Source: Bacteroidaceae bacterium (GTDB lineage Bacteria; Bacteroidota; Bacteroidia; Bacteroidales; Bacteroidaceae). Taken from it: DNA of 39,265 bases. The notes under the pieces were generated by a model. It made no database searches. It worked only from the letters and a program-made list of their open reading frames with translations, and was not told where the DNA came from. The DNA lies in the NCBI GenBank assembly GCA_017524545.1, contig JAFXVN010000011.1:1-39265 (forward strand), given 5' to 3'. Positions 1 to 34,182 of the stretch are shown here, in pieces. Numbering within the stretch: position 1 is the stretch's first letter; every line of letters begins with the position of its first letter. The translations under genes and the position numbers were made by a program.

Positions 1-52
1 AAAGTGAAAAGTGAAGAATTATTTGCTTTATGTGTTTTTTTCCTTTCTTTTC

Positions 53-83
53 TTTGCTATGGTGCGAAAAAAGCATATCTTTG
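53..83 (+). promoter_or_regulatory. dnaN promoter
   Basis: A Bacteroidota-type promoter: TTTG at 53-56, then a 19-base spacer, then TATCTTTG at 76-83. It lies 45 bases upstream of the dnaN ATG. The leader between them carries a short repeat (98-116) that occurs again inside a coding sequence near 14.0 kb. Confidence 0.7.
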
Positions 84-97
84 TGGTGCGAAATAGT

Positions 98-116
98 AAA
101 TAGTAAATCGTCAAAT
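98..116 (+). repeat. 19-base repeat, copy 1 (dnaN leader)
   Basis: The 19-mer AAATAGTAAATCGTCAAAT occurs here and, identically, at 14006-14024 inside the endonuclease/phosphatase gene. Here it sits in the untranslated leader just before the dnaN start. Confidence 0.75.
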
Positions 117-128
117 ATAAATCTCTTT

Positions 129-1253
129 ATGAATTTCAAAGTATCAAGCACGGCTTTATATAGCCGTCTGACTGCTGCCAGCAAGGTGATGGCAAGCAAA
201 AACTCTATGCCTATCTTGGATTGTTTCCTGCTCGATGTCGCTAATGGCACGATTACCATCACTGCTTCCGACAGCGAGAAGTATTTCATCACATCGGTTC
301 CTGTTGTGGAGCAAAGCGGCGACGCTCGTTTCTGCATCACTGCCAAGACAATAATGGAGTCGATGAAGGAACTGCCTGAACAGCCTCTCAACATTGGCTA
401 CAATCCCGACACCCAGGAGGTGAAGGTGGTGCACAACTCTGGTTCGTTCGTTGTGATGGCTATGGATGCGGCACCTTATCCTATGGCAAAGACCGTGAGC
501 GAGGACGCTACGCGCATCGAGATGCCTGCCAGTGTGCTGCTCAACGGTATCAACCGCTGTCTGTTTGCTACGGCCAACGACGAGATTCGTCTGGTGATGA
601 ACGGCATTTATGTCGATATTAAGCCAGATTGCATTGTCTTCGCTGGTACCGATGGCCGCAAGTTGGTGCGCAACACGAACCGCACAGTGAAGAGCGGTCT
701 GACCGCTGGCTTCATCCTGCAGAAGAAAGTTTCTGCCATCCTGAAGGCTGTGCTTACGAAGGACGAGGAGAACATCACCATCGCTTTCGATTCAGAGAAG
801 GCGACCATCACCTCTGCCGACATGGTGATGCACTTCCGCCTCATCGAAGGCCGCTATCCCAACTACAATGCCGTTATTCCCGAGAACAATCCCTTCACCG
901 CCTGTGTTGATCGTCAGGCTCTGACCAGCGCTTTGAAGCGCGTCAGCGTGTTCTGCAACCAGAGCAGTGGCCTCGTCAAGCTCGAGATGGCTAACAACAA
1001 CATCAAGCTTACAGGTCAGGACAACGAATACGCCACACGTGCAGAGGAGTTCATTCTTTGCGAATATACGAGCAACCCCATCAGCATCGGCTTCAGCTGC
1101 ACCTTCCTGCTCGAGATTGCCGGTATCTTGGATAGCGAGATGCTCAGGATTGAGGTGGCAGACCCCAGCCGCCCGGGTGTGATACGTCCTGCCGACGACA
1201 ACCCCGAGGACGAGGTGCTCATGCTCCTCATGCCTATGCGCGTGGAAGAATAA
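129..1253 (+). CDS. dnaN: DNA polymerase III subunit beta (sliding clamp)
   Basis: Ring-shaped processivity clamp that tethers DNA polymerase III to DNA during replication. The 374-residue product has the usual length of bacterial beta clamps. It begins MNFKVSSTALYSRLTAASKV, the typical N-terminus of domain 1, and ends with the conserved LMPMR-type C-terminal strand, so it is complete. The ATG at 129 is preferred because the longer in-frame extension upstream runs back through the promoter and repeat. The DEDDh exonuclease gene follows 15 bases later on the same strand, then coaBC, so the three are probably co-transcribed. No anomaly in the protein itself. Confidence 0.97.
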   Translation: MNFKVSSTALYSRLTAASKVMASKNSMPILDCFLLDVANGTITITASDSEKYFITSVPVVEQSGDARFCITAKTIMESMKELPEQPLNIGYNPDTQEVKVVHNSGSFVVMAMDAAPYPMAKTVSEDATRIEMPASVLLNGINRCLFATANDEIRLVMNGIYVDIKPDCIVFAGTDGRKLVRNTNRTVKSGLTAGFILQKKVSAILKAVLTKDEENITIAFDSEKATITSADMVMHFRLIEGRYPNYNAVIPENNPFTACVDRQALTSALKRVSVFCNQSSGLVKLEMANNNIKLTGQDNEYATRAEEFILCEYTSNPISIGFSCTFLLEIAGILDSEMLRIEVADPSRPGVIRPADDNPEDEVLMLLMPMRVEE

Positions 1254-1268
1254 GGAAAAAAGGCAACG

Positions 1269-2039
1269 ATGAGACTCAAGCTCGAAAAGCCCATCATCTT
1301 CTTCGACCTCGAGACAACAGGTCTGACGATTGGCAAAGACCATATCGTTGAACTCTGCTATATCCGTCTGGAGCCCAATGGATGCGAGCGTGCCGAGACA
1401 TTGCGCTTCAACCCAGGCATACCTATCTCCAAGGAAGCCAGTGAAGTAAACGGCATCACGAATGCGGATGTCAAGGATTGTCCCACATTTGCAGAGAAGG
1501 CTCCAGAACTGGCAAAGGTCTTCGAGGGCTGCGACCTTGCAGGCTATAACAGCAACAAGTTTGATGTGCCGATGCTGACAGAGGAGTTTGCCCTCTGCGG
1601 CATCGACATCCATGTCAACGAGAAGAAGTTGGTGGATGTGCAGAACATCTTCCACAAGATGGAGCAGCGCACCCTTGTGGCTGCCTATAAGTTCTATTGC
1701 GGAAAAGACTTGCAGAATGCCCATAGTGCCTTGGCCGACACGCGGGCCACGCTTGAGGTGCTCGAAGCACAGCTCGACCGCTATCAGGACACCCTGAAGA
1801 ACGATGTGGCTTTCCTTGCCGATTTCACCCAGATACAAAAGGGCGTTGACCTTGCCTGCCGTTTCGTTTATGACGAGAAAGGCGTGGAGATAGTCAACTT
1901 CGGCAAATACAAAGGGCAGGCTGTCAAGGATGTCCTCAGGAAAGATCCGAACTATAAGGTGTGGATGCTGCAAGGCGACTTCACGATGAACACGAAACAA
2001 ACGCTCGAACGACTTGCATTGAAATATGCTGGAAAATAA
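1269..2039 (+). CDS. DnaQ-like DEDDh 3'-5' exonuclease
   Basis: Probable 3'-5' exonuclease of the DNA polymerase III epsilon superfamily (DEDDh type). The three exonuclease motifs are visible: Exo I FFDLETTGL with D13 and E15, Exo II NSNKFDVPML with D99, and Exo III AHSALADTRA with H152 and D157. These supply the residues that bind two metal ions. After residue about 205 there is a small C-terminal module (FGKYKGQAVKDVLRKDPNY) that I recall from other Bacteroidota exonucleases of this type. It lies between dnaN and coaBC, overlapping coaBC by 14 bases, which suggests translational coupling. Whether it proofreads for the replicase or acts in repair cannot be told from the sequence. Confidence 0.9.
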   Translation: MRLKLEKPIIFFDLETTGLTIGKDHIVELCYIRLEPNGCERAETLRFNPGIPISKEASEVNGITNADVKDCPTFAEKAPELAKVFEGCDLAGYNSNKFDVPMLTEEFALCGIDIHVNEKKLVDVQNIFHKMEQRTLVAAYKFYCGKDLQNAHSALADTRATLEVLEAQLDRYQDTLKNDVAFLADFTQIQKGVDLACRFVYDEKGVEIVNFGKYKGQAVKDVLRKDPNYKVWMLQGDFTMNTKQTLERLALKYAGK

Positions 2040-3225
2040 GAAGATAGTTCTTGGCGTTACAGGAAGCATCGCTGCCTATAAAGCCTGTCTTCTTGTTCGT
2101 CTCCTCATCAAGAAAGGTGCGGAGGTACAGGTCGTGATGACCCCTTCTGCAAAGGAGTTCATTACGCCCTTGACGCTTGCCACCTTGACGCAGAAGCCTG
2201 TCGTGAGCGAGTTCTTCGACCGCAGAGACGGCAGTTGGCATTCTCATGTCAGCCTTGGGCTTTGGGCAGATGCCATGCTCATTGCCCCGGCTACCGCAAG
2301 CACCATCGGGAAGATGGCAAACGGCATTGCAGACAACATGCTTGTCACGACCTATCTGAGCATAAAGGCACCTGTCTTCGTGGCACCGGCGATGGATCTT
2401 GACATGTATGCCCATCCTTCCACGCAGCAGAACCTCCAAAGGCTCGTCAGCTTCGGCAATCACATCATCGAGCCAGGCACAGGCTTCCTTGCTTCAAACC
2501 TCGAAGGCAAAGGACGCATGGAAGAACCTGAGCGCATTGTGGAAGCTTTGGAGCAGTACTTTGCCAAGCACCAAAAGTTATCGGGCAAAAAAGTGCTCAT
2601 CACAGCAGGCCCTACCTACGAGAAAATAGACCCCGTCCGCTTCATCGGCAACTACAGCAGCGGCAAGATGGGTTTCGCTCTTGCCGAGATCTGTGCCGAG
2701 CAAGGAGCAGATGTGACGCTCATCAGCGGCCCAGTCATGCTCAAGACCGTGCATCCTGCCATCCGCCGCATTGATGTGGAGAGTGCAGGCGAAATGTACG
2801 AGGCTGCGACGAAACTCTTTCCTAAGGCAGATATCACCATCCTCTGCGCTGCTGTTGCGGACTTCACTCCGAAGACGACAGCTGCACAGAAGATAAAGCG
2901 GAAAGGCGACAATCTGAAGCTCGAACTGCAACCGACCCAGGACATCGCCGCAGCTCTTGGCGCGGTCAAGAAGAAGAAACAAATTCTGGTGGGCTTTGCC
3001 TTAGAGACAAACGACGAGCTGAAGAATGCCAAGGACAAGATGGAGCGCAAGAACTTCGACCTCATTGTCCTGAACAGCCTTCAGGACAAGGGCGCGGGCT
3101 TCCGCCTTGACACCAACAAAGTGACCATCATCGACCGACATCAGGGTCTCACATCCTATGGCGTTAAGTCGAAGAAAGAAGTGGCAGAGGACATCATAGA
3201 AGAAATTGAAAAGTTAAAAGGTTAA
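2026..3225 (+). CDS. coaBC: Bifunctional CoaBC (PPC synthetase/decarboxylase)
   Basis: Coenzyme A biosynthesis: the C-terminal CoaB half joins cysteine to 4'-phosphopantothenate and the N-terminal CoaC flavoprotein half decarboxylates the product to 4'-phosphopantetheine. The CoaC half (about 1-180) shows the catalytic His74 in WHSHVSLGLWAD and the substrate-clamp motif PAMDLDM at 121-127. The CoaB half starts near residue 187 with KKVLITAGPTYEKIDPVR and FIGNYSSGKMG, and has AAVADFTPK with KIKRKGD downstream. At 399 residues it is full length. The last codons (EIEKLKG) are written in an AAAAGTTAAAAGGTT microrepeat that continues past the stop, so the very C-terminus may be repeat-derived. Confidence 0.96.
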   Translation: MLENKKIVLGVTGSIAAYKACLLVRLLIKKGAEVQVVMTPSAKEFITPLTLATLTQKPVVSEFFDRRDGSWHSHVSLGLWADAMLIAPATASTIGKMANGIADNMLVTTYLSIKAPVFVAPAMDLDMYAHPSTQQNLQRLVSFGNHIIEPGTGFLASNLEGKGRMEEPERIVEALEQYFAKHQKLSGKKVLITAGPTYEKIDPVRFIGNYSSGKMGFALAEICAEQGADVTLISGPVMLKTVHPAIRRIDVESAGEMYEAATKLFPKADITILCAAVADFTPKTTAAQKIKRKGDNLKLELQPTQDIAAALGAVKKKKQILVGFALETNDELKNAKDKMERKNFDLIVLNSLQDKGAGFRLDTNKVTIIDRHQGLTSYGVKSKKEVAEDIIEEIEKLKG

Positions 3226-3237
3226 AAAGTAAAAAAT
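3207..3237 (+). repeat. AAAGTTAAAAGG-type microrepeat at the coaBC stop
   Basis: A run of AAAAGTT/AAAAGGTT/AAAAAGT units spanning the last codons and stop of coaBC. The same family, on the other strand, fills the lspA-dksA gap at 24656-24690 (units of CTTTTTAACCTTTCAA). Confidence 0.6.
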
Positions 3238-3241
3238 AACT

Positions 3242-4156
3242 ATGAGACATCGTCTTATTCTTCTTGTTTTTATCGCATCCATCTTTTCACCTTTTCACCT
3301 TTTCACTTTTTCTCAAGAGCTGGATGCCCGTGTTACCATCAACCATGCACAGATTGAGAACACGAGGACAGAGGTGTTCGATGCCCTGCAGACGAAGCTG
3401 ACGGACTTCCTCAACAACCACAAGTGGACGGAGATTCCTTTCCGCGAGAATGAGAAGATTCAGTGCAACTTCAACATTACGGTCAACACCTACAAACAGG
3501 AAGAAAACTCCTTCGAGTGTTCGTTGCTTATGAGCAGCAGCCGTCCCGTCTATGGCAGCACCTACAACACTGTCACATACTCTGTGAACGATGGGGACTT
3601 CACTTTCGTCTTCGGCGAGTTCGACCAGCTGGAGTATCAGGAGAACCAGATAGACAACAACCTTGTCGCGCTACTTGCCTACTATGCCTATATGATTATC
3701 GGCATGGATCTTGATACGATGGCTCCTATGGGCGGCACCGACTGCTTCCATATTGCCGAGGACATCGCCACGGCTGGCGACAACCTCGGCTTCCCCGGCT
3801 GGAAACCTTTCGGCGACAGTGGCAACCGCTTCGGCTTGCTCAACGACTACATGGACGGTGCAATGGAAGGTATGCGCGAGTTCAACTACATCTACCATCG
3901 CAAAGGGCTCGACCGCATGGTCGAAGCGCCCGATAGTGCCCGGGCTGCCATTGCCGATGCCTTGGATTTGCTTCGGGAAGCAAACAGGGCAAAGAGCATG
4001 ACCAGAGTAGCACAGCTCTTCACCGAATACAAGCGCGACGAACTGGTCAGCATCTTCGCCAAGAAGGGCACAAAGGAAGAGAAGGAAAAGGCCTACGAAA
4101 CCTTCTTTGCCATCGATGCCTCGCAGAACAACACCTGGGAGAAGATTAAGAAATAG
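3242..4156 (+). CDS. porD: DUF4835 family protein (type IX secretion PorD-like)
   Basis: Secreted or periplasmic protein of the DUF4835 family, which current annotation links to the type IX secretion system as PorD. The 304-residue sequence has an N-terminal signal peptide (hydrophobic to about residue 24, then QELDARVTIN, the usual start of the mature protein). Family signatures seen are SSRPVYGSTYNT, LLAYYAYMIIGMDLDTMAPMGG and the C-terminal NNTWEKIKK. It follows coaBC after 16 bases; coaBC-DUF4835 adjacency is common in Bacteroidota. The signal-peptide segment SPFHLFTFS is encoded by three exact copies of an 8-base unit (CTTTTCAC, 3283-3306). The secretion role is inferred from family knowledge only. 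Confidence 0.85.
   Translation: MRHRLILLVFIASIFSPFHLFTFSQELDARVTINHAQIENTRTEVFDALQTKLTDFLNNHKWTEIPFRENEKIQCNFNITVNTYKQEENSFECSLLMSSSRPVYGSTYNTVTYSVNDGDFTFVFGEFDQLEYQENQIDNNLVALLAYYAYMIIGMDLDTMAPMGGTDCFHIAEDIATAGDNLGFPGWKPFGDSGNRFGLLNDYMDGAMEGMREFNYIYHRKGLDRMVEAPDSARAAIADALDLLREANRAKSMTRVAQLFTEYKRDELVSIFAKKGTKEEKEKAYETFFAIDASQNNTWEKIKK
3283..3306 (+). repeat. 3 x 8-base tandem repeat in the porD signal peptide
   Basis: Three exact copies of CTTTTCAC (3283-3290, 3291-3298, 3299-3306). The total of 24 bases keeps the frame, but gain or loss of one unit would shift it. Confidence 0.85.
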
Positions 4157-4208
4157 GCAGGTTGTGTTACTTAAACGGGGCTGTGCCATATTACAATCAA
4201 TAGCTTTT

Positions 4209-4294
4209 AACCACGAATTGCACGAATTACACGAATAGTTGTCAGTTGATAATCAGAGACGGGACAATTAGTGTAATTCGTGCAATTCGTGGTT
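4209..4294. repeat. CACGAATT inverted repeat between convergent genes
   Basis: A perfect 24-base inverted repeat (arms 4209-4232 and 4271-4294, 38-base loop) made of CACGAATT-type 8-9 base units. It lies between the 3' ends of porD (+) and uvrB (-), where a large stem could act as a bidirectional terminator. Related degenerate arrays occur at 12729-12763 (CGGATTGAG units) and 18846-18911. Confidence 0.75.
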
Positions 4295-4310
4295 TAATGA
4301 ACGCAGTACG

Positions 4311-6353
4311 TTATGTTTTGCATTGCTCCAGTTCTGCTTGCAGGCGGAGCATTTCGTCGCGGAGGAGGGCGGCTTCGACGAACTCCATCTTCTTGGCTGC
4401 TTCCTCCATCTTGCGCTTAAGGCTCGCTATGCGTTTCTTTTTTTCATCAATAGTAAGGGTACCCTCTCCCTGGCCTTCCGCCAAAGAGGATGGGGATTCG
4501 GCAACGGCGAGTACTCCCTCCCCAATGTCCCCATCGTAGAGCGTCTGTTCTCCCCTCTTTTGGAGGGGCTGGGGGAGGCTGTTTTTCCTTATCTGCGTGG
4601 GCGTGATGTGGTGTTCGGCATTGTAGCGGAGCTGCTTCTCGCGGCGGCGGTTGGTCTCGTTGATGGTCTTTGCCATGCTTTCAGTCATGCTGTCGGCATA
4701 CATGATGGCCTTGCCGTGTACATTGCGGGCGGCGCGGCCGATGGTTTGTGTCAGGCTCCGATGGTTGCGCAGGAAGCCCTCCTTGTCGGCATCGAGGATG
4801 GCAACCAAAGAGACTTCCGGCAGGTCGAGACCCTCGCGCAGGAGGTTCACGCCGACAAGCACGTCGTATTTGCCTGCCCGAAGTTCACCGATGATGCGCA
4901 CGCGATCCAATGTGTCAACGTCGCTATGGATGTAAGCTGTTTGGATGCCCATGCCAAGCAGGTATTCCGTCAGCTCTTCCGCCATGCGTTTCGTGAGCGT
5001 CACCACCAAAACGCGCTCTTTCCTTTCGACGCATTGCTGAATCTCTTCCATGAGGTCATCGACCTGGTTCTCTGTGGGGCGCACTTCAATGGGAGGGTCG
5101 AGAAGCCCTGTCGGACGGACGACTTGCTCCACCACAACACCTTCGCTCTCCGCAATCTCATAGTCGGCAGGCGTGGCGCTGACGTAGATGACCTGATGCG
5201 TCATCTCCTGGAACTCCTCGAACTTCAGCGGACGGTTGTCCTTGGCGGCAGGTAGGCGGAAACCATAGTCCACGAGCGCCGTCTTGCGGGCTTGGTCGCC
5301 GCCGTACATGGCATGAAGCTGCGGCACGGAGACATGGCTTTCGTCTATGACGAGCAGGAAGTCCTTTGGGAAGAAATCGAGCAAGCAATAGGGGCGAGTG
5401 CCGGGGGAGCGTCCGTCGAAGTAGCGGCTGTAGTTCTCGATGCCGGAGCAGTGTCCAAGCTCGCGAATCATCTCGATGTCGTAGGTGACGCGCTCGTGCA
5501 AGCGCTTTGCCTCAAGCTCTTTGCCCTGACGCTCGAAGAAGGCAACCTGCTCGCGTAGGTCGTCTTGAATCTGCACGATGGCACGCTCCTGGGCATCCTT
5601 CGAGGTCATAAAGAGGTTGGCAGGATATACCTTATAGCTGTCGTATGACTGTATGCGCACGAGACGCTCTGCATCAAGTTCTTCCAAACTCTCTATCTCG
5701 TCGCCCCAGAAGGTGACGCGCAGCAGGAAGTCGCTGTAGGCAAGGGCTATGTCAATGGTGTCGCCCTTGACGCGGTACTCACCCCGGGAGAGGGTAATGT
5801 CGTTGCGGACATATAGCAGTTCGTTGAGTCGGCGCAGCAGTTCGTTGCGGTCAAGCTCCTGCCCGACGTGCAGTTCCAGAAGGCTTTCATAGAAGGTGGA
5901 GGGGTTGCCCATGCCGTAGATGCACGACACGCTGCTCACGACGATGACATCCGACCTCCCCGATAGCAGGGCGCTTGTGGCAGCGAGCCTCATTCGGTCT
6001 ATCTCATCGTTGATGGCCAAGTCCTTCTCAATGTAAGTGTCTGTGGCAGGCATGTAGGCTTCGGGCTGGTAGTAGTCGTAGTAGCTGACATAGTACTCCA
6101 CCGCGTTGTGCGGGAAGAACTGCTTCATCTCGCCGTAGAGCTGTGCGGCAAGCGTCTTGTTGTGCGAGAGGATGAGCGTGGGTCGGCCGATGTCCCGGAT
6201 GACATTGGCGATGGTGAATGTCTTGCCGCTGCCAGTGACACCGAGCAGAGTCTGCGCCCTCACTCCTTGGCGGATGCCGTCGGTCAGCTGCCGGATGGCC
6301 TCGGGCTGGTCGCCTGTGGGCTGGTAATCTGATATAAGTTCAAACTGATTCAT
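4311..6353 (-). CDS. uvrB: Excinuclease ABC subunit UvrB
   Basis: DNA-damage recognition helicase of nucleotide excision repair. Visible features: Walker A GVTGSGKT (38-45), the damage-probing beta-hairpin region YYVSYYDYYQPEAYMPATDTY, the DEAD-like motif VIDESH, motif VI QTIGRAARN, and a C-terminal UVR motif for UvrA/UvrC contact (IASLKRKMEEAAKKMEFVEAA). At 680 residues it is complete. The linker between the helicase core and the UVR motif (about residues 590-635, SLPQPLQKRGEQ...SPSSLAEGQGEG) is written in G-rich palindromic repeat sequence, including a 31-base block matching the ssb leader at 27 of 31 positions. It has its own TAACTTTG box in the shared upstream promoter cassette. Confidence 0.97.
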   Translation of the reverse strand: MNQFELISDYQPTGDQPEAIRQLTDGIRQGVRAQTLLGVTGSGKTFTIANVIRDIGRPTLILSHNKTLAAQLYGEMKQFFPHNAVEYYVSYYDYYQPEAYMPATDTYIEKDLAINDEIDRMRLAATSALLSGRSDVIVVSSVSCIYGMGNPSTFYESLLELHVGQELDRNELLRRLNELLYVRNDITLSRGEYRVKGDTIDIALAYSDFLLRVTFWGDEIESLEELDAERLVRIQSYDSYKVYPANLFMTSKDAQERAIVQIQDDLREQVAFFERQGKELEAKRLHERVTYDIEMIRELGHCSGIENYSRYFDGRSPGTRPYCLLDFFPKDFLLVIDESHVSVPQLHAMYGGDQARKTALVDYGFRLPAAKDNRPLKFEEFQEMTHQVIYVSATPADYEIAESEGVVVEQVVRPTGLLDPPIEVRPTENQVDDLMEEIQQCVERKERVLVVTLTKRMAEELTEYLLGMGIQTAYIHSDVDTLDRVRIIGELRAGKYDVLVGVNLLREGLDLPEVSLVAILDADKEGFLRNHRSLTQTIGRAARNVHGKAIMYADSMTESMAKTINETNRRREKQLRYNAEHHITPTQIRKNSLPQPLQKRGEQTLYDGDIGEGVLAVAESPSSLAEGQGEGTLTIDEKKKRIASLKRKMEEAAKKMEFVEAALLRDEMLRLQAELEQCKT
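4552..4582. repeat. G-rich palindromic repeat inside uvrB
   Basis: A 31-base block with hairpin core CCCCTCTTTTGGAGGGG followed by CTGGGGGAGGCTGT. It differs at only four positions from the block in the ssb leader (13212-13242). It is read in frame as part of the UvrB linker. The neighbouring 4455-4500 stretch (CCCTCTCCCTGGCCTTCCGC) looks like a second element of the same kind. Confidence 0.75.
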
Positions 6354-7274: not shown

Positions 7275-8038
7275 CCCTGCCGCCGGCGGAACTCGGCACA
7301 GACAATGCCTGTAGCAACGGCTACGTTGAGGCTTTCGGTCGTAAGCGAGCCTTTCGGGAAGTTGGGGACATAAAGGCGGCGGCTGACATGCTTTGCCACT
7401 TCCGAGCTGATGCCGTTCCCTTCGTTGCCCATCACGATGATGCCCTCCGTGGAAAGCTCTTCTTTGTAGATGTCCGTGCCGTCGAGGAAGGTGCCGAAGA
7501 CAGGCATCTTCACTTTGGCGAGCACTTCCGGCAGGTCGCAGTAATGCACTTTCACCCTTGCCAAGGCTCCCATGCAGGATTGCACGCATTTGGGGTTATA
7601 GACATCTGCCGTCCCCTCCGAGCAGAGAACCTGACGGATGCCAAACCAGTCGGCAATGCGCAGGATGGTGCCCAAATTGCCAGGGTCCTGCACACCGTCG
7701 AGGGCAAGGAGCAACTGCCTTTCTTGTATTTCCAATTGATTGTCGGCCATCGACCATTGTGGGATGGGCATTACAGCCAAAACGCTTTGCGGTGTGCGCA
7801 GCAGGCTCGCCCTTTCCAGCTCTTCGCGGCTCACCTCGTCAATTGGACAATTTGACAATCGGACAATTTGACAATTTGTGTCTATCCATTCCTTTGTCGC
7901 TGCAATGTAGAGCGGAGTGGAGTAGGGCAGCAATTCGCCCACCAGCTTCGGCCCCTCTGCCACAAATGCTTTGTGCTGGAGCCGGTACTTGCGCATTTCA
8001 AGCGACTTAATCCATTTGATACGAGCCTTGCTTAACAT
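7271..8038 (-). CDS. TrmH/SpoU family RNA 2'-O-methyltransferase
   Basis: Likely S-adenosylmethionine-dependent 2'-O-ribose methyltransferase of the SPOUT class acting on rRNA or tRNA. The three SpoU motifs are present: NLGTILRIADWFGI, MGNEGNGIS and VPNFPKGSLTTESLNVAVA. The N-terminal 60 residues form the usual substrate-binding domain (FVAEGPKLVGELL). The 255 residues fit the family. Within the N-terminal half the segment TNCQIVRLSNCPI is encoded by four 8-base GACAATTT-type units, and PQWSMADNQLEI by a GGTCGATGG-type microrepeat, so two loops look repeat-derived. The target nucleotide cannot be told. Confidence 0.92.
   Translation of the reverse strand: MLSKARIKWIKSLEMRKYRLQHKAFVAEGPKLVGELLPYSTPLYIAATKEWIDTNCQIVRLSNCPIDEVSREELERASLLRTPQSVLAVMPIPQWSMADNQLEIQERQLLLALDGVQDPGNLGTILRIADWFGIRQVLCSEGTADVYNPKCVQSCMGALARVKVHYCDLPEVLAKVKMPVFGTFLDGTDIYKEELSTEGIIVMGNEGNGISSEVAKHVSRRLYVPNFPKGSLTTESLNVAVATGIVCAEFRRRQG
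7846..7877. repeat. 4 x 8-base GACAATTT repeat inside the TrmH gene
   Basis: Units at 7846, 7854, 7862 and 7870; three are GACAATTT and one is GACAATCG. A related array (ATTGTCAGATTGTACAATTG) lies between the P5-like and HU-like genes at 33100-33146. Confidence 0.8.
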
Positions 8039-10450: not shown

Positions 10451-11385
10451 CGAATGGAGGCATAGTAGCCGAGCTTGTAGAGGGAAAAGAGCATTTGCCG
10501 GGGATGCCTTCCGAGCAGATTGGCTCGCAAGAGCGGCTTAAATATAATAAATAATGTACGCGCGAAGCCAAGCAGATGCCAACGCTTCAGGCGCAGAGCC
10601 AGTACAGAAATGCGGGCATTCTGTTGCAGTTCATAGTCCATTGAGGCAAGAGAGCGTAGGGCTGTCTCTGTCTTTTCCAAATACACATCGGCATCCTCAA
10701 GCCCGAGGTGCGTCAGTTTGTTTTCGATGTGAAGTATGGGGATGCCGCGCCGTTTAAGCTCCAAGCCGAAGAGCGTGTCCTCGTGACCATATTCATGCAG
10801 GTGTTCGTCGAAGCAGATGGAAAGAAATGTGTTGCGCAGGATGAGGAAATTGAAGGTGGTGAATTGTGCGTAAGCGAAGCGGCGGCGATGTTCGAGTGTC
10901 AGGCGTTTCTCAGCTGCCACCTCGTAGTCGTAGCGCAACCGGGCCTCTGGCCTGGGGCATTGAGGCAGATTGCCTGTGCCTCCGCAGATAACATTGACCA
11001 TTGACCATTGACCATTGACCATTATACCATCGCCATTATCGGCTATGCTATCAGAAGCGCTACAATGGTCTATGGCATCAAGATAATTCTTGATGAACGA
11101 CGGGCTGCACACTTCTGCGTCGGCATCAATGAAGAGCAGCCAGTCGCCTTTTGCTTCTCGGGCGAGGGCATTGCGGATGGCTGCCCGTCCCAGGTTGTGG
11201 TCGGGGCGGAAGATGCGGCATCCCGTTAGGCTGGTAATTTCGTTGTTCTTGCAGATGATGTCCACGTCCGTCGAGCAGTCGTCGCCCACGATGAGTTCGC
11301 CATCCTGTGGAAGCTGTTGCTGCAGCTGGCGCACAAGGCGGCTGCAGTCGTAGTTGAATGTCGGGACAAGGACGGAAAGTTTCAT
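10447..11385 (-). CDS. Family 2 glycosyltransferase
   Basis: Likely transfers a sugar from a nucleotide donor to a cell-surface glycan. It has a GT-A fold N-terminus (MKLSVLVPTFNYDCSRLV), the nucleotide-binding stretch GELIVGDDCSTD, the metal-binding DxD in LLFIDADAEV, and a later YGHEDTLFGLELKRRG, where the ED pair is the usual catalytic-base region. The C-terminal 60 residues are basic and hydrophobic, suggesting membrane association. ATG 11385 is preferred to the GTG six bases upstream. Last gene of a probable ssb-gldE-GT run (20-base gap to gldE). The middle contains four tandem copies of a 7-base unit (10993-11020) encoding MVNGQWSMVN, a frame-sensitive repeat. Confidence 0.9.
   Translation of the reverse strand: MKLSVLVPTFNYDCSRLVRQLQQQLPQDGELIVGDDCSTDVDIICKNNEITSLTGCRIFRPDHNLGRAAIRNALAREAKGDWLLFIDADAEVCSPSFIKNYLDAIDHCSASDSIADNGDGIMVNGQWSMVNVICGGTGNLPQCPRPEARLRYDYEVAAEKRLTLEHRRRFAYAQFTTFNFLILRNTFLSICFDEHLHEYGHEDTLFGLELKRRGIPILHIENKLTHLGLEDADVYLEKTETALRSLASMDYELQQNARISVLALRLKRWHLLGFARTLFIIFKPLLRANLLGRHPRQMLFSLYKLGYYASIR
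10993..11020. repeat. 4 x 7-base tandem repeat inside the glycosyltransferase
   Basis: Four exact copies of ATTGACC, continued by a partial copy. Because 7 is not a multiple of 3, one unit more or less would truncate the protein, as in phase-variable contingency loci. Confidence 0.9.
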
Positions 11386-13178: not shown

Positions 13179-13211
13179 CTTTCATTTACCATTTAATCAT
13201 TTACCATTTCC

Positions 13212-13242
13212 CCCCTCCTTCGGAGGGGTTAGGGGAGGCTGT
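13212..13242. repeat. G-rich palindromic repeat in the ssb leader
   Basis: Hairpin core CCCCTCCTTCGGAGGGG plus TTAGGGGAGGCTGT; 27 of 31 bases match the copy inside uvrB. It lies between the probable ssb -7 box (TACATTTG on the minus strand, 13257-13264) and the ATG, so it would be transcribed in the 5' leader. Confidence 0.8.
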
Positions 13243-13308
13243 TACTATTTGTTGTGCAAATGTACAAAGAAAATAAGAAATGAGAAAGAAGAATTGAGAA
13301 TTATTTCG

Positions 13309-13337: not shown

Positions 13338-14240
13338 ATGAAACATTTTATATTAGCACTTGCATTGCTTCTTCCTTGTTTGCTTTCAGGGAAGAAAGTC
13401 TCCCCTTTAATGGGAGATTTAGAAGGGTCCTGTCAAATCCGTTGGTGTACCTTCAACATCCGTCTGCAAAATGATGGTGATGAGAAAGCGGGTGTCGGCT
13501 GGAGCGTTCGCAAAGACCGAGTGGCGAATTATATCAAGGGAAAGCACATCGACATCATCGGTATGCAGGAAGTCTTGCACCAGCAGCTTCAGGATTTGCT
13601 CGAGCGTCTGCCAGAATATGATTACGTCGGAGTGGGGCGTACGGACGGCAAGACGAAGGGAGAGTACTCGCCAGTCTTCTTCCTCAAAGAGAAGTTCGAG
13701 GTTCTGGAGAAGGGCAATTTCTGGCTGAGTGAGACACCCGACGTGCCAGGCTCTGTCGGGTGGGACGCAGCATTGGAGCGTATCGCCAGCTATGCAAAGC
13801 TCCGTGATAAGGCCACGGGCAAGATATTCATGGCTGTCAACACGCACTTCGACCACGTTGGCGTAGTGGCTCGCCGCGAGAGTGCGAAGCTTATCATGCG
13901 GAAGATACAGGAGATTGTCGGCGATCGTCCTGCCGTCGTGACAGGCGACTTCAACGTCACCGAGGATGACGAAGCCTACGCCACAATGACTGCAAGCCAA
14001 ATTGTAAATAGTAAATCGTCAAATTGTAAATTCCTTGATGCTTACCACATGACGCCCAATCATACCGGCACCACCTATACTTTCCATAACTTCTGCCACA
14101 TCCCGCCGCTCAAGTGCGAGAAGATTGACTTCATCTTCATCACGCCAGGCATTAAGGTGAATCACTCTCATATTGAGGTTCCCAACCCCCAAGCTCTGCC
14201 CTCCGACCACAACCCCCATTGGGCGGACCTGGAGTTCTAA
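13338..14240 (+). CDS. Secreted endonuclease/exonuclease/phosphatase family protein
   Basis: Mg-dependent phosphodiesterase fold (DNase I/EEP family). Signal peptide MKHFILALALLLPCLLS is followed by CTFNIRLQND (motif I Asn), IIGMQEVLHQQL (catalytic Glu), NTHFDHVGVVARRESAKLI, VVTGDFNVTEDD (Asp/Asn) and LPSDHNPHWADLEF (catalytic His). All active-site motifs are intact, so it should be an active exported enzyme; Bacteroidales often carry such proteins, substrate unknown. Two segments look repeat-derived: SPLMGDLEG just after the signal peptide (G-rich hairpin TCTCCCCTTTAATGGGAGA) and IVNSKSSNCKF near residue 225, which contains the exact 19-mer also found in the dnaN leader. Confidence 0.9.
   Translation: MKHFILALALLLPCLLSGKKVSPLMGDLEGSCQIRWCTFNIRLQNDGDEKAGVGWSVRKDRVANYIKGKHIDIIGMQEVLHQQLQDLLERLPEYDYVGVGRTDGKTKGEYSPVFFLKEKFEVLEKGNFWLSETPDVPGSVGWDAALERIASYAKLRDKATGKIFMAVNTHFDHVGVVARRESAKLIMRKIQEIVGDRPAVVTGDFNVTEDDEAYATMTASQIVNSKSSNCKFLDAYHMTPNHTGTTYTFHNFCHIPPLKCEKIDFIFITPGIKVNHSHIEVPNPQALPSDHNPHWADLEF
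13397..13430. repeat. G-rich hairpin repeat inside the endonuclease gene
   Basis: TCTCCCCTTTAATGGGAGA followed by TTTAGAAGGG, read in frame as VSPLMGDLEG between the signal peptide and the catalytic domain. Same style as the uvrB and ssb copies. Confidence 0.55.
14006..14024 (+). repeat. 19-base repeat, copy 2 (inside coding sequence)
   Basis: Exact copy of the dnaN-leader 19-mer, read in frame here as part of IVNSKSSNCKF between the catalytic GDFN motif and the final H motif of the endonuclease/phosphatase. Confidence 0.8.
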
Positions 14241-19668: not shown

Positions 19669-19750
19669 ACCTCACAGAGCGTGCCACAAAACCTCACAGA
19701 GCGTGCCACAAAACCTCACAGAGCGTGCCACAAAACCTCACAGAGCGTGC
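19668..19750 (+). repeat. 22-base tandem repeat, 3.8 copies
   Basis: Three exact copies of AACCTCACAGAGCGTGCCAC+AA (19668-19689, 19690-19711, 19712-19733) and a 17-base partial copy. It begins at the HEPN-MNT stop codon. There are no spacers, so it is not a CRISPR array. Confidence 0.9.
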
Positions 19751-19800
19751 TTACAAACTATTTTCAAGGCTTGAAAATATATTATCAAGCTTTGAAAATA

Positions 19801-19842
19801 TATTATCAAGGCGTGAAAATATATTTTCACGCCTTGATAATA
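19801..19842. terminator. 42-base perfect palindrome between convergent genes
   Basis: TATTATCAAGGCGTGAAAATA and its exact complement with no loop, 21 bp per arm. Upstream, TTGAAAATATATTATCAAG occurs twice as imperfect direct copies (19752-19800). It lies between the HEPN-MNT gene and the convergent metalloprotease and is probably a bidirectional terminator, though far longer than usual. Confidence 0.65.
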
Positions 19843-19906
19843 ATTATATAACGAGCCTAAATGACTTTTATGCCGTTTTACGGGGAAGTTTATATCGTGC
19901 TGTTAT

Positions 19907-22979: not shown

Positions 22980-24040
22980 TTGCGACGGCGGTTGGTGCGT
23001 TGCGGGATGCCGCGATCGGGATGTATGGGGTTCGGGTTCTCCTTCACGACTCTTATCTTGCGTTCCTTCGGCTGGCTTTCGCGCACCTGCAAGGGCGTTA
23101 GGCGTTCGCCTTTCTGCAACGGCATCGTGTCGAGAACAAGCGTGTCTGCCGCGAGAGAATCCGTCTGAGTGTCCGATGCAGGATTTGGAATCGGCTCCTG
23201 CTTGTGCATACGGATGAGTTTTATCTCGCTTGCCAAGAGAGGCTTGGGAGGGTCTGCGCTGTTGACGGGCGGAAGGTATATGAAGCCTGAGATGGAGCGC
23301 AGGTTCAACGAGTCGAGTTCTTTTGAGGGGGTATGGCGCAGTTCGTTTTTCGGACTGTTGCGGAGCAGTTCGCTTATGGTGGCAACCGTGTCCGTGTCGT
23401 AGTAGAAGTTGAGCAGTGCGATAGCTTCGTTGTTCATGCTGCGAGCCACGAATTGTGTCTTGAAGCGCCAGATGAAGCTGTCGCCGGGGCGGAAGGTGGA
23501 GTCTGCCTTCATTTGGAAGGAATACACGCACTGCACCTTGTTGGGGACAATGCAGGCGAAGTCCTTGCCAAGCCAGATGTTTGCCGTGTCGCCCTCGCTG
23601 GTCAGTGAGGCGAACTTGTCTTGTGCAGCGGCTTCGAGTCCCATGCGTTCTGCCTGTGCGCGCACGCGGGTGACTACATTGTCATATATTAGTTTGAAAT
23701 CCTCTGCCCGTCCGCTGTAATAGACCATCGAGGAGTCGAACTCCGCTTCGGTGATGCGGTGCTTTTTGAAAACAGCCTGAAGGTATTTGTAGCGTGTGGC
23801 ATCGATGTCTTCGCTTTTGGCTTCGGCCATTCCCTGTGCCAGGTGGATGTCAACGAGCACATCCGTCATTTTGTCCTCGTCCAATATGCCGCTGGGCAGG
23901 GGAGGGGCGCAGGAACCAAGAAGGATAAAAAAAAAGAAAAGCAGACCCCCTCTGACTTCTCCTCTAAGGGGAGAACTCTTAATTAAGCCCCTCCACATAG
24001 AGGTGAAGGGGTTTGGGATGAGGGTCTGCTTTTCTTTCAT
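22976..24040 (-). CDS. DUF4296 domain lipoprotein
   Basis: Predicted outer-membrane or periplasmic lipoprotein of 354 residues. After the start comes an unusually long n-region (MKEKQTLIPNPFTSMWRGLI...), then LLFFFFILLGSC, a clear lipobox with the acylated Cys. Residues about 50-135 form the DUF4296 domain (DEDKMTDVLVDIHLAQGMAE, YYSGRAEDFKLIYDNVVTRV). The C-terminal third is low-complexity and basic. ATG 24040 overlaps the lspA stop by 4 bases, so the start is secure. The n-region is encoded by a 99-bp element with 13-bp terminal inverted repeats, inserted in frame without destroying the signal peptide. Confidence 0.88.
   Translation of the reverse strand: MKEKQTLIPNPFTSMWRGLIKSSPLRGEVRGGLLFFFFILLGSCAPPLPSGILDEDKMTDVLVDIHLAQGMAEAKSEDIDATRYKYLQAVFKKHRITEAEFDSSMVYYSGRAEDFKLIYDNVVTRVRAQAERMGLEAAAQDKFASLTSEGDTANIWLGKDFACIVPNKVQCVYSFQMKADSTFRPGDSFIWRFKTQFVARSMNNEAIALLNFYYDTDTVATISELLRNSPKNELRHTPSKELDSLNLRSISGFIYLPPVNSADPPKPLLASEIKLIRMHKQEPIPNPASDTQTDSLAADTLVLDTMPLQKGERLTPLQVRESQPKERKIRVVKENPNPIHPDRGIPQRTNRRRK
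23936..24034. repeat. 99-bp palindromic element inside a lipoprotein signal peptide
   Basis: Terminal inverted repeats GAAAAGCAGACCC (23936-23948) and GGGTCTGCTTTTC (24022-24034), 13 of 13 bases. Internal hairpin-like blocks CTCCTCTAAGGGGAGA and CCCCTCCACATAGAGGTGAAG resemble the G-rich family elsewhere. Read in frame, it encodes most of the DUF4296 n-region. Confidence 0.8.
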
Positions 24041-25081: not shown

Positions 25082-28000
25082 TTATTTTTTCTTATTTACT
25101 GTTAATTCGTTGCCGAGACTGATGCTGTCGGCAAGAACCTGTGATGCGATGTAGTCGCTGAACTTGCTGAGACAGGTGCGGTTGTCGTCTGTTTCGGGCA
25201 GAGTGACGTTGATGCGGTCGGTGATGTCGAAGCCGCTGTCCTTGCGGAGTGTCTGGATGCTGCGGATGAGTTCGCGGGCAATGCCTTCCAGTCGCAAGTC
25301 CTCGGTGATGGTGAGGTCGAGGGCGACGGTCAGTGTACCTTCGTTGGCAACGCTCCATCCCGGAATGTCCTGGCTGAAGATTTCGATGTCCTCAAGGTCA
25401 ACGGTCACTTGTTCGCCTGTGTCGAGTGTGAGGGGCAGATGCTCCTGGGCTTCCAGCTCTGCAATCTGCTCCTGGCTCATGGCAAGCACGGCGGCATTGA
25501 CGCTCTTCATCAGCTTGCCGAACTTCTTGCCCATCGTCCTGAAGTTACACTTCACTTGCTTGACGAGCATCCCCTGAGCCTCAACAAATTCCAGCTCCTT
25601 AACGTTCACCTCGTCGAGGATGAGCTGCTGCATGGCCGTGATGCGCTGCTGCTGCTCTGCGCTGGTGGCGGGGATGGCGATGCGCTGGAGGGGTTGCTTC
25701 ACGACAATCTGCTCCTTCTTGCGGAGCGAGAGTATCATGCTCGTCACCTGCTGGGCGAGAGCCATCCTTTGCTCCTGCTCGATATCTATCTTCGCATCAT
25801 CTGCTACGGGGAACTTGGCGAGGTGTACGCTCTTCGTCTCGCCCTTGCCTGTTGCCTCGTTGAGGTCTCGCCAGAGGCGGTCGGCATAGTAGGGGGCGAT
25901 GGGTGCCATCAGTCGGGCAACGGTTTCGAGGCAGGTGTAGAGCGTCTGGTAGGCACTCAGTTTGTCGAGGCTCATGGCCGAGCCCCAGAAGCGCTTCTTC
26001 GAGAGGCGCACGAACCAGTTGCTGACGTTATCGACCACGAAGGTTTGGATGAGTCGGCCTGCACGGGTCGGCTCGTAGTCCTCGTAACACTGGTTAACCT
26101 CGCGGACGAGGCTGTTCAGGCACGAGAGAATCCAGCGGTCCATCTCCGGGCGCTCGTTCATCGGCACGTCTGGCTCTTCGTAGCACCAGCCATCGACATT
26201 CGCGTACATCGTCAGGAAGGAATATGTCTGGAAGAGCTTGCCGAAGAATGTGCGGCTCACTTCCTGCACGCCCTCTTCGTCGAACTTCAGGTTGTCCCAC
26301 GGTGCGCTGTTCGTTATCATGTACCAGCGCACGGCATCGCTGCCGTACTTCTCGATGGCACCGAAGGGGTCAACGGCATTGCCCAGGCGCTTCGACATCT
26401 TCATGCCGTTCTTGTCGAGCACGAGGCCGTTGCTGATGACAGCCTTGTAGGAAACGCTGTCGAAGACCATCGTGGCGATGGCGTGAAGCGTATAGAACCA
26501 GCCGCGTGTCTGGTCAACGCCCTCTGCGATGAAGTCGGCGGGGAAAGCAATGGATGTGCCTTCAAACGGATAATGGAACTGAGCGTAAGGCATTGCGCCC
26601 GAGTCGAACCAAACGTCGATGAGGTCGAGCTCGCGCTTCAGCACAGCACCACTCTTGCCCACGAGCCAAATCTGATCAACGTAGGGGCGGTGCAGGTCGA
26701 TGCGGTCGTAGTTCTCCTGACTCATATCGCCTGGCACGAAGCCCTTTTCCTTCAGCGGGTTGCTGGGCATCACGCCTGCTGCAACGGCCTTCTCTATCTC
26801 ATTATATAATTCCTCGACGGAACCGATGCAAATCTCTTCGCGCGTCTCCTTGTTGCGCCAGATTGGGAGCGGCGTTCCCCAATAGCGGGAGCGCGAGAGG
26901 TTCCAGTCGTTGAGGTTCTCGAGCCACTTTCCGAAGCGGCCTGTGCCTGTGCTCTCGGGCTTCCACAGAATGGTGTTGTTGAGTTCCATCATGCGCTCCT
27001 TGACGGCCGACGAACGGATGAACCAGGAGTCGAGCGGGTAGTAGAGCACGGGCTTGTCTGTGCGCCAGCAATGCGGGTAGTTGTGGATGTGCTTCTCTAT
27101 CTTGAAGGCCGTGCCAGCCTGCTTCATCTCCATGCAAAGCACGATGTTCAGGTCTTCGGTCTTGGCAAGTGCCTTTTCGTCCAGTTCGGCATACTTCGGG
27201 TCGTAGGCGTTCTTGACGAAGTCACCGCTGTGCGCCCAGTAGCTGTCGTTGACGCAAGCCTCCACGAAGGCGGCGTCCATGTCTTCCTTCACGAAGTACT
27301 TGCCCGTGAAGTCAACCATCGGACGTGTGTCGCCTGCCTTGTCGATAATGAACAATGATGGGATGCCTGCGTCCTTGGCAACCTTCGCATCGTCGGCACC
27401 GAAGGTCGGGGCGATGTGTACGATGCCAGTACCGTCTTCCGTGGTAACATAGTCACCGGGAATGACACGGAAAGCTTCGTCATTTTTAATTGTTAATTCT
27501 CCATTGTTAATTTCACAAGGCTTCACCCACGGGAAGAGCTGCTCGTACTTCAGGCCTATGAGAGCCTCTCCCTTACCCCTCCAAAGGAGGGGAGCATCCT
27601 CTGGGAAATAAACATCTTTTCGTGCTTCAGCCAAGATGTAAATAGCTTCTTCTCCAGTATAAGGATTGTTGCCCTTTACGGCAACATAGTCAATCTTCGG
27701 CCCTACGCAAAGGGCGGTGTTGGAAGGCAAAGTCCACGGCGTGGTCGTCCAAGCCAAGATATACACAGAGGGCACAGAGGTCACGGAGGCTTTCAATGCC
27801 TGTAAGAATTTCTCTGTGTTCTCATTCTTCTCTGTGTTCTCTGTGACAATTCTGAATTGTGCCGTTACCGTCGTGTCTTTCACATCTCTGTAGCAGCCGG
27901 GCTGGTTCAGTTCGTGGCTGGAGAGGCCGGTGCCAGCGGCGGGAGAGTAGGGCTGGATGGTGTAGCCCTTGTATAGCAGGTCTTTCTGGTAGAGCTGCTT

Positions 28001-29026: not shown

Positions 29027-29072
29027 AAGCTCCGCGACTACAATCGCGCCTTGGTGCTAAAGCATCCAAGAA
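29027..29072. repeat. 46-base dispersed repeat, copy 1
   Basis: Identical to 35760-35805 except for one base. It contains two adjacent hairpins: CGCGACTACAATCGCG (5-bp stem) and CTTGGTGCTAAAGCATCCAAG (9-bp stem with one bulge). It lies at the broken edge of the IS remnant. Confidence 0.85.
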
Positions 29073-30632: not shown

Positions 30633-30633
30633 G

Positions 30634-32312: not shown

Positions 32313-32327
32313 AAAAGGAATCCTTTT

Positions 32328-32588
32328 TTACTCGTTTGCTCGCTTTATTAGGTCTTTGATGTAAATCTTAACGCCAAAGATGCTGCCCGAATAGACAAGA
32401 ATCTGTCCGAAAAGCATCAATACACTGCCGTCTATCTCACCTTCGGGCGGCATGAAGAGGCTGATGGTTGCCAAAATGCAACCAAAAGCCAAGAGGAAAG
32501 AGGCGGTAGCCCCCTCCAAACCTCCCCCTTTGGGTGAGGCTTTCCTTTCCGTCGAGGAGGTTGGAAGGGCTACTTTTTCCTTTTTCAT
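32328..32588 (-). CDS. Small two-helix membrane protein, holin-like layout
   Basis: An 86-residue protein with two hydrophobic segments (SFLLAFGCILATISLFM and VLMLFGQILVYSGSIFGV) and a short charged C-terminus. Its ATG overlaps the smalltalk stop by 4 bases. Size and topology fit a holin or a membrane anchor, but no family is recognised. The N-terminal segment LPTSSTERKASPKGGGLEG is encoded by a palindromic repeat (GTAGCCC ... GGGCTAC). Confidence 0.7.
   Translation of the reverse strand: MKKEKVALPTSSTERKASPKGGGLEGATASFLLAFGCILATISLFMPPEGEIDGSVLMLFGQILVYSGSIFGVKIYIKDLIKRANE
32506..32573. repeat. 68-bp palindromic element in the 86-aa gene
   Basis: Ends GTAGCCCCCTCCAAACCT and AGGTTGGAAGGGCTAC are imperfect inverted repeats, with CCCCCTTTGGGTGAGGC between. 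It is read in frame as the N-terminal loop of the membrane protein. Confidence 0.7.
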
Positions 32589-33077: not shown

Positions 33078-33099
33078 TTCACAATTTAACGATTTCACA

Positions 33100-33146
33100 A
33101 TTTACAATTTAATTGTCAGATTGTACAATTGTCAGATTGTCAAATC
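33100..33146. repeat. ATTGTCAGATTGTACAATTG microrepeat before the P5-like gene
   Basis: Repeats of ATTGTCAGATTGT fill the short gap between the HU-like and P5-like genes; same style as the array inside the TrmH gene. Confidence 0.6.
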
Positions 33147-33606
33147 ATTCCAGTCCCTGAATGGTTTCCTCGTTCTTGATGACCTGGATTTGCTCTGCCT
33201 GTGCGGCGCGGCTGGGCACGAGCTGGAAGGTGGCTTCCTGACGGATGTTCTTGAAGTCCTTGCCAGGCTCCCAGCTGACATTGACCTCCTTGATGTTGCG
33301 GGCGCTGAAATCGTCGGTGGTTCGTGCGCCTTCGGACTTGAGGCGGGGCTGGAAGTCGCCGAGTGCGCCGAGCTTTACGCGCTTGCCGGCAAGCATCATC
33401 TCGCGCAGACAATCAACGGCGATGGTGAGCAGACCGACGATGTCGCCCTTACCATACACGCAGCCGTGATTGTGGATGTGATTGGCGAATTCGTTGATGT
33501 CGATGACCTCGGTGCACTGAGCAATGCCATAGGCCTTCGTTTCGGTGATTTGCGCCTTCTTGGTTCCGGGCTTCGTGCCCATGATTGCGATACTGTAATT
33601 GATCAT
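33145..33606 (-). CDS. HU-like DNA-binding protein (HU-HIG type)
   Basis: A 153-residue DNA-binding protein of the HU-related family found only in Bacteroidota. Seen: KPGTKKAQITETKAYGIAQ, DINEFANHIHNHG, GDIVGLLTIAVDCLREMMLAGKRV, and GALGDFQPRLKSEGARTTDDF, the HU beta-arm region. The C-terminal 30 residues are an added tail. Complete. Its 164-base leader holds four 22-base repeats. It heads a run with the P5-like, smalltalk and 86-aa membrane genes, the usual context for this family. Confidence 0.9.
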   Translation of the reverse strand: MINYSIAIMGTKPGTKKAQITETKAYGIAQCTEVIDINEFANHIHNHGCVYGKGDIVGLLTIAVDCLREMMLAGKRVKLGALGDFQPRLKSEGARTTDDFSARNIKEVNVSWEPGKDFKNIRQEATFQLVPSRAAQAEQIQVIKNEETIQGLE

Positions 33607-33672
33607 AGCAAAAGTGTTTTTTAGGATTAATTATTTAAGGTTAAATACTCTATTGTGGTCGGCTTGGAAACG

Positions 33673-33760
33673 CACCTGCATGTGTTGGGCATTGCACCTG
33701 CATGAGTTGGCCAACGCTCCTGCATTTGTTTGGCAACACAGCAGCATGTGTTTTTTGACT
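33673..33760. repeat. 4 x 22-base imperfect tandem repeats in the HU-like leader
   Basis: Units begin at 33673, 33695, 33717 and 33739, each close to CACCTGCATGAGTTGGCCAACG. On the transcribed strand each carries ATGCAGG or ATGCTGC preceded by AACxCA or a drifted form. They lie between the promoter (33771-33802) and the HU-like ATG. Confidence 0.8.
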
Positions 33761-33770
33761 TCCCACGGTG

Positions 33771-33802
33771 CAAAGGTACGGCAGCAAGTGTCAATAATCA
33801 AA
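33771..33802 (-). promoter_or_regulatory. HU-like gene promoter
   Basis: On the minus strand TTTG (33799-33802), 20-base spacer, TACCTTTG (33771-33778). It is followed by the repeat-bearing leader. Confidence 0.7.
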
Positions 33803-33807
33803 AGACA

Positions 33808-33848
33808 GAAAAAGCATGGCTTCCAGAGGTAGGAAACCATGCCTTTTC
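33808..33848. terminator. Hairpin GCATGG...CCATGC
   Basis: A 17-base imperfect stem (arms 33808-33824 and 33832-33848) with A-rich and T-rich flanks. It is placed to end the minus-strand ORF at 33946. The rest of 33849-33945 shows nothing I can name. Confidence 0.6.
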
Positions 33849-33945
33849 AGCAAGAATGTCATTATATATAGAGAAATATGAACAGACAGGATGAATAACA
33901 GGTGGACAAATATGCTATTCAGGTTGTGAAAAAAGTGAGTGCACC

Positions 33946-34182
33946 TTATTGGCGAAGCACGCGCATACCCGCCCATCGCAAGAGACATCTTGCTTTTACC
34001 TGCGTAATGGTGAAGCTGCCATTGAGAAGGCGAAACACATATCGCAGTTCTTTGTCTGGCAGTTGAGATTTCCTCTTCTTCCTTCGCGACTCGGCAGAGT
34101 TCAAGTCTACTTGACTCTGCACTCGCTGCTTCGTCAGTTCCTGCCAAGACTTAGGTACAGATAAATCGATGACTGTTTTCAT
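33946..34182 (-). CDS. Short hypothetical protein, probably a degraded gene
   Basis: A 78-residue ORF. The parts MKTVIDLSVPKSWQEL and DKELRYVFRLLNGSFTITQV with RCLLRWAGMRVL resemble the start of a Prevotella family that I cannot name. Between them, QRVQSQVDLNSAESRRKKRK is encoded by a palindrome (34086-34126). The protein stops soon after VLRQ, much shorter than I expect, so the 3' part is probably lost. The -7 box TACCTTTG (34187-34194, minus strand) lies 4 bases before the ATG. Confidence 0.5.
   Translation of the reverse strand: MKTVIDLSVPKSWQELTKQRVQSQVDLNSAESRRKKRKSQLPDKELRYVFRLLNGSFTITQVKARCLLRWAGMRVLRQ
34086..34126. repeat. 41-base palindromic repeat inside the 78-aa ORF
   Basis: Arms GCGACTCGGCAGAGTTCAAG and CTTGACTCTGCACTCGC pair with small bulges around a 2-4 base loop. 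It is read in frame as a charged insert in an otherwise conserved-looking N-terminus. Confidence 0.65.

Follow-up and report, generated by a model that had tools for sequence, protein, structure and literature searches.

Short repeats that invade proteins are known mainly from Rickettsia, Wolbachia and some genomes bearing repetitive extragenic palindromic (REP) sequences. We describe such repeats in a 39,265-nucleotide contig of a Bacteroidaceae bacterium (JAFXVN010000011.1, hereafter the window) and in a larger sample of the same genome. A preliminary description had proposed that repeats are inserted in frame into many conserved genes of the window; this observation is partly confirmed and reaches beyond the window. 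According to two sources, Rickettsia palindromic elements (RPEs), also reported in Wolbachia, are palindromes of several families that lie in frame in conserved proteins and also between genes, with a length of 105–146 or ~150 bp (PMC2229807, PMC10969869). Another source describes REPs, bacterial interspersed mosaic elements (BIMEs) and REP doublets forming hairpins (REPINs) as 20–40 nt palindromes and inverted dimers. Most REPs are intergenic there, and intragenic GTAG/CGTC REP dimers or groups encode 20–30 amino acids in hosts that include uvrA, uvrB and tRNA synthetase genes (PMC3733652). BrickBuilt, a miniature inverted-repeat transposable element (MITE) of Porphyromonas gingivalis, is always intergenic (PMC4596501). 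In the literature searched, which most subscription papers lie outside, no title or abstract describes such protein-internal repeats in Bacteroidota.

Our preferred reading, to which we assign a probability of about 0.8, is that the genome hosts several short dispersed repeat families, which copy themselves or are copied to new places largely irrespective of genes and are then filtered by selection. Copies that arrive in an open frame where the protein is tolerant (a loop, a linker, a signal peptide or the stretch before a C-terminal tail) would survive as added or replaced residues, and the remaining copies would be removed. The leading family, GC1, is a hairpin arm of ~35 nt, single or in an inverted pair, with a REPIN-like form and an RPE-like effect on proteins.

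The genome comprises 3.6 Mb in 85 contigs, with the window as contig 36. A library of 21 repeat words was scanned at 85% identity across 1,151,321 nt (the window and stretches L091–L150), where a home-made caller found 955 genes (89% coding). Loci at least 45 nt from either gene end were counted as internal. The scan gave 485 merged repeat loci: 161 internal, 24 at gene ends, 72 partial and 228 intergenic. These numbers exceed chance expectation, with 0–1 match per family in a fifth-order Markov surrogate and up to 71 in the sample. Internal repeats, at least one per gene, occur in 119 of the 955 genes of this sample, which is enriched for GC1 since its stretches were chosen partly at GC1 matches. 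The GC-rich hairpin families account for 135 loci, distributed as 93 internal, 15 end, 3 partial and 24 intergenic; all remaining families give 68, 9, 69 and 204, respectively. The earlier statement that the repeat families normally lie between genes is therefore untrue of the GC-rich ones, and their matches in 0.71 Mb of the relative G123 are likewise mostly genic (16 internal, 4 intergenic).

These counts also bear on the idea that the AT-rich families are products of local slippage in units of 7–9 nt. Tandem Repeats Finder does report periods of 7, 8, 9 and 16 nt at positions 3283, 6379, 7840, 10992, 24655 and 27810. However, words of 20–22 nt recur across the sample, where the surrogate predicts 0–1, and recur again in G123; GC1 is not a product of slippage. 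We regard slippage as an unlikely source of these families.

The exact GC1 head has 115 copies in its own genome, with 11 for the reversed control. It is present in 41 of 139 genomes of the genus (own genome included), where the next-highest count is 38, and absent from the close relative G118 (0 copies). Across the family it occurs in 56 of 399 genomes and 11 of 30 genera; in genus g6, the signal does not exceed that of the control. The GC5 head has 16 copies in the host genome and is present in 35 of the 139 genus genomes. Such a patchy distribution points to recent expansion.

Relatives were compared wherever one spans an internal locus at 60% identity or more, and a repeat was called absent if fewer than 60% of its residues are identical. 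Twenty-three of the 161 internal sites are comparable in this sense. The repeat is absent from the best relative at 21 of them and present at two, and mean identity over the 23 sites is 21% for repeat residues and 78% for the flanks; at one of the 21 sites, in an endonuclease gene, G123 has the same repeat in diverged form. Alignment with orthologues thus bears out the predicted lineage-specific segments, although the word insertion fits only in part: several cases replace a variable stretch instead of adding residues.

At three sites, library scores place different families in different species. In the loop of isoleucyl-tRNA synthetase (IleS), the host carries the ACACAGAG family, G073 a GC1-type repeat (18/21), G001 the ACACAGAG family (17/20) and other genomes other sequence; judging from the G001 copy, this repeat may be older or may have arrived twice. 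At the PorD signal peptide, the host has the TTCACC family (21/21), G123 and G005 have the GGTCAAT family (19/21), and five other genomes lack any library repeat. The third site, at residue 118 in a gene on L099, holds GC4 in the host and GGTCAAT (20/21) in G090. In IleS, Bacteroides and others have a short, plain loop. L065 and L072 show hairpin-like DNA by eye in their IleS loops, as does G027 in an ABC-F-like linker; at thresholds of 70–80%, the library gave no word at the G027 site or at an L093/L193 site, and both were excluded from the scored repeats.

The same 23 sites speak to the proposal that template switching or conversion spreads inserts to sequences that already resemble the repeat. 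The second IleS site does lie on a native LWRGKG, and the relative's sequence resembles the insert at the L132 and L120 sites (p = 0.018 and 0.033). Resemblance at p < 0.1 is nevertheless confined to 6 of 23 sites, which include the two shared sites and one diverged repeat copy, and the median p is 0.32. Similarity of the empty site to the insert gave no general signal, and we consider this route rather improbable.

An artefact of metagenome assembly or binning is brought to mind by the closest named IleS records, which are metagenome-assembled genomes (MAGs) or uncultured-bin assemblies from rumen or gut. Against it, the genomes of other species have open frames with different repeats at the same sites, and coding signal flanks 150 of the 161 internal loci on both sides, so that we give this explanation almost no credence. 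The labels of those IleS relatives (Bacteroidaceae, Bacteroidales or Prevotellaceae) place the host near the Prevotella named in the preliminary description; the assignment itself is unproven.

The repeats are predicted to add up to ~30 amino acids to the encoded proteins. Ten chosen GC- or AT-bearing genes match Pfam families of enzymes and transporters, among them AAA/ClpB_D2, an ABC transporter with ABC_tran_Xtn, OPT, class II tRNA synthetase, RNB and PGM; we take three of these to be ClpB, ABC-F and RNase R. Solved relatives confirm the identity of lysyl-tRNA synthetase, where one aligns to residues 8–104 and 140–534 and skips the insert. For phosphoglucomutase, no solved relative was found at 1e-30. 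When ten of the 66 remaining GC-bearing genes were picked at random, all ten matched Pfam families, and in five the insert falls inside the Pfam domain (sulfatase, glycogen debranching enzyme, ETF, Na/Ca exchanger and DUF554). The expectation that inserts fall in loops is directly supported for some sites only, namely the first IleS site and the UvrB linker. The IleS loop lies between strands 208–216 and 244–250 of a predicted model of medium quality (mean pLDDT 73, 202 residues below 50) that was used solely to place it.

Inserts could also have been kept because they are useful to the protein as new linkers or signal peptides. A YDLSGR-type C-terminal tail, presumably a sorting tail, directly follows 12 of 68 AT-rich internal inserts and 1 of 93 GC ones, and the PorD signal peptide bears repeats in three species. 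The host proteins, however, are unrelated and the sites differ from species to species, which makes general usefulness a decidedly poor explanation.

GC1 has a single consensus with sharp ends, (A)GCCTCCCC[C/T]NNC-CCCTCC-AAA-GGAGGG-GNGAA, derived from 73 arms (62 genic, 11 intergenic). Across the genome, head and hairpin are separated by three variable bases (CGT, CAT, CGA, CAG, CTG, TAA and others), and the remainder is almost fixed; the same three bases form a 3x3 internal loop in the single folded pair. CGTC inside GC1 arms is one variant of the four bases preceding the core, and TAAC precedes the core in 4 of 11 intergenic arms vs 1 of 62 genic ones. Arms occur singly or as REPIN-like inverted pairs with terminal inverted repeats. 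The 17 pairs span 83–147 nt, and nine are exactly 83 nt from GCC to GGC. All nine lie wholly within a called gene, compared with four of the eight pairs of other lengths (three across a gene edge, one intergenic; Fisher p = 0.03).

Such pairs recall the REPINs of Pseudomonas, which are mobilised by REP-associated tyrosine transposases (RAYTs, Y1 type). One pair, of 85 nt, forms one long hairpin (-62.9 kcal/mol, z = -7.9), and the genome has four Y1_Tnp matches, three above the Pfam cut-off. Over the 139 genus genomes, though, copy number and Y1_Tnp number are uncorrelated (rho = 0.03, p = 0.70), and on this ground RAYTs were rejected as the driver. G020, G090, G081 and G088, which are incomplete genomes, have 12–38 copies and no Y1 match, and a library repeat appears at 80% in the flanks of just one of four Y1 loci. 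Mobilisation by RAYTs is accordingly improbable.

Reading frames were used very unequally. The 32 single genic arms fall into the six frames as 16, 2, 0, 4, 6 and 4 (chi-square against equal use, p ~2e-5), so that intragenic copies are not in frame merely as often as chance would have it. Five frames of the 21-nt GC1 core are open in all non-internal copies, and the sixth in 71%. Among the six frames, codon frequency puts the favoured one first and a synonymous measure puts it second. Families that are open in more frames have a larger internal share (Spearman 0.57, p = 0.014, 18 families). Frames in use are also more polar than the other open frames (mean -0.59 vs -0.29, p = 0.019), and control windows show the reverse. 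The suggestion that selection favours insertions that stay open is supported by the unequal frame use and by the 21 sites at which the best relative has no repeat.

Dispersed copying followed by selection would explain most of the split between families, the weak polar bias and the positions seen; we infer mobility as the cause and selection as the filter. Several results weigh against this account. Only 23 of 161 internal sites could be compared, and two of these are shared with a relative (TrmH in G126, the second IleS site in G073). Since 67 of the 115 exact GC1 heads fall in the sampled 32% of the genome, repeat densities such as 119 of 955 genes are overestimated; the genic/intergenic split should be less affected. 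No target-site duplication was found, with a flank match of 2 nt in two of 17 pairs and none in 15. No copying enzyme was identified, and the RAYT correlation, target duplication and empty-site similarity gave no support. The polarity bias is weak, the used frame being lower in 83 of 156 cases, and none of 62 arms uses PPPSPPKEGRT, the most polar of the GC1 frames; hydropathy was rejected as the single cause of frame choice on these grounds. The CCACGGATTACACGG and CACGAATTGCACG families are each open in ~4.8 frames yet have 3 internal and 48 intergenic, and 1 internal and 8 intergenic loci, respectively, so open frames alone are no explanation of their rarity in genes.

A more specific and tentative proposal, which we think has somewhat less than an even chance, is that GC1 is a REPIN-like dimer turned specialist for coding sequence. 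Its 83-nt form would be wholly genic, read mainly in one frame (ASPxPSKGG...TPPLEGTGEA), distinct from an intergenic TAAC subtype and spread from gene to gene without a RAYT, and variable loops would serve as landing sites where unrelated families replace each other between species.

The repeat features of the window are listed in Table 1. The block common to uvrB and the ssb leader extends to 31 of 36 identical positions (27 of 31 in the best-matching stretch of that length), and the exact block common to the dnaN leader and the endonuclease is a 21-mer, longer than the 19-mer first reported. The endonuclease N-terminal segment was left out of the internal count, as the caller starts the gene at 13410, and G123 is the only relative covering it. 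Repeats had been claimed inside at least ten reading frames. Library words or orthologues uphold the first UvrB segment, glycosyltransferase, endonuclease and PorD. Scores do not uphold DUF4296 or the 86- and 78-amino-acid open reading frames (ORFs), and the second UvrB segment resembles a repeat only by eye. Library words were absent from that segment at 70% and from the DUF4296 N-terminus at 75%, and both were excluded from the scored repeats; the DUF4296 N-terminus of G114 also has hairpin-like DNA by eye. The 78-amino-acid ORF has no library word at 70%, and neither small ORF has a gene call or a Pfam match; tblastn at E 0.01 found neither of them in 1.55 Mb of DNA from relatives. At the end of coaBC, a repeat is present and overlaps only the last codons and the stop. 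Of the three IleS sites, the first is a hypervariable loop, the second is shared with G073 and the third is a replacement of equal length.

Table 1. Repeat features of the window in order of position.
Feature	Position	Strand	Observation
GTAAATAGTAAATCGTCAAAT repeat, dnaN leader	88..116	+	
coaBC last codons, stop and following repeat	3207..3238	+	C-termini vary among relatives anyway
PorD/DUF4835 signal peptide SPFHLFTFS, TTCACCTTT family (TTCACC), 21/21	3287..3313	+	
Intergenic inverted pair CACGAATTGCACGAATTACACGAAT	4206..4297	.	34-nt arms, 91% complementary
UvrB linker, second segment SPSSLAEGQGEG	4461..4496	-	Gap in orthologues; repeat-like by eye only
UvrB linker, predicted repeat-coded NSLPQPLQKRGE, GC1 hairpin arm	4548..4583	-	None of the 29 best aligned orthologues in the genus has it
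TrmH segment CQIVRLSNCPIDE, TTGACAATT family	7835..7873	-	G126 has a similar but diverged segment; G005 lacks the repeat
Glycosyltransferase insert GIMVNGQWSMVN, GGTCAAT family	10993..11028	-	Absent in three relatives compared
GC1 arm, intergenic, before ssb	13208..13243	-	
Endonuclease N-terminal VSPLMGDLEGS, GC5 family, 22/23	13398..13430	+	G123 shows a gap plus unrelated residues
Endonuclease insert VNSKSSN, GTAAATAGTAAATCGTCAAAT family	14004..14024	+	Missing from G130; G123 has a diverged version
DUF4296 lipoprotein N-terminus, GC-rich hairpin-like DNA by eye	23942..24022	-	
IleS site 3 segment INNGELTIKNDE, TTAACAATGGAG family	27476..27511	-	ALEDGKVVDKSAE replaced, length unchanged; G118 has EISNGKLTIKNDE
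IleS site 2 segment APLLWRGKGEAL, GC1	27560..27595	-	Common to G073; similar native LWRGKG in others
IleS site 1, hypervariable loop ENTEKNENTEK...TSVPSV, ACACAGAG family	27767..27847	-	
86-amino-acid ORF, weak GC4-like match (16/21) near start	32328..32588	-	Gene reality unsupported

Other repeats were noticed in passing. A perfect 22-nt tandem array of AAACCTCACAGAGCGTGCCACA (3.8 copies, 19667–19750) lies at the stop of a 229-amino-acid ORF, next to an AT-rich palindromic array of 21/42-nt units (19756–19847) whose word is one of the commonest in the sample (top 14-mer, 34). An imperfect 22-nt tandem array (~AACGCACCTGCATGTGTTGGGC, 3.8 copies) spans 33669–33752. Repeats at 35828–35983 and 38996–39231 (35 nt at 100%, 121 nt at 93%), ~3.2 kb apart, flank an ORF at 36009–38081. 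A 46-nt block is 98% identical at 29027–29072 and 35760–35805, and its two copies are perhaps remnants of one mobile element. Beyond the window, an array resembling clustered regularly interspaced short palindromic repeats (CRISPR) starts at L125:17061 (G000:C43, ~57,060), with 17 copies of GTTGTGGTTTGATGATG..., the first five at steps of 65–66 nt.

These observations describe a rumen Bacteroidota lineage with many protein-internal repeats of several families, in enzymes such as tRNA synthetases. With more than 100 related species, it offers a natural insertion experiment in which insertion rate, tolerance and frame choice become measurable. The repeats explain odd peptides in such proteins, and repeat segments should not be trusted in annotation.

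Repeats of this kind are already known as the palindromic elements of Rickettsia and Wolbachia and as intragenic REPs; the lineage, the families, the preference for genes and the shared landing sites look new. As in RPEs, palindromic elements lie in frame in conserved proteins, a likeness of form. Their arms are ~35 nt and their pairs 83–147 nt, mostly 83, unlike the ~105–150 nt of RPEs; the host belongs to another phylum, and the 135 GC loci in 1.15 Mb are mostly genic. REPs and REPINs share with GC1 a head followed by a 20–40 nt hairpin, the inverted dimers, and uvrB and tRNA synthetase genes among the hosts. GC1, the family examined for this point, begins with (A)GCCTCCCC and has no GTAG or CGTC tag at the start of its arm; it has no RAYT association and, like the GC families generally (93 internal vs 24 intergenic loci), is not mainly extragenic. 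For these three reasons we do not file it as a REP. With the MITEs of Bacteroidota, represented by BrickBuilt, it shares the phylum, short gene-free repeats and terminal inverted repeats, but it differs in lacking target-site duplications (none of 17 pairs has flanks matching over more than 2 nt), and where BrickBuilt is always intergenic, the GC families here are mostly genic.

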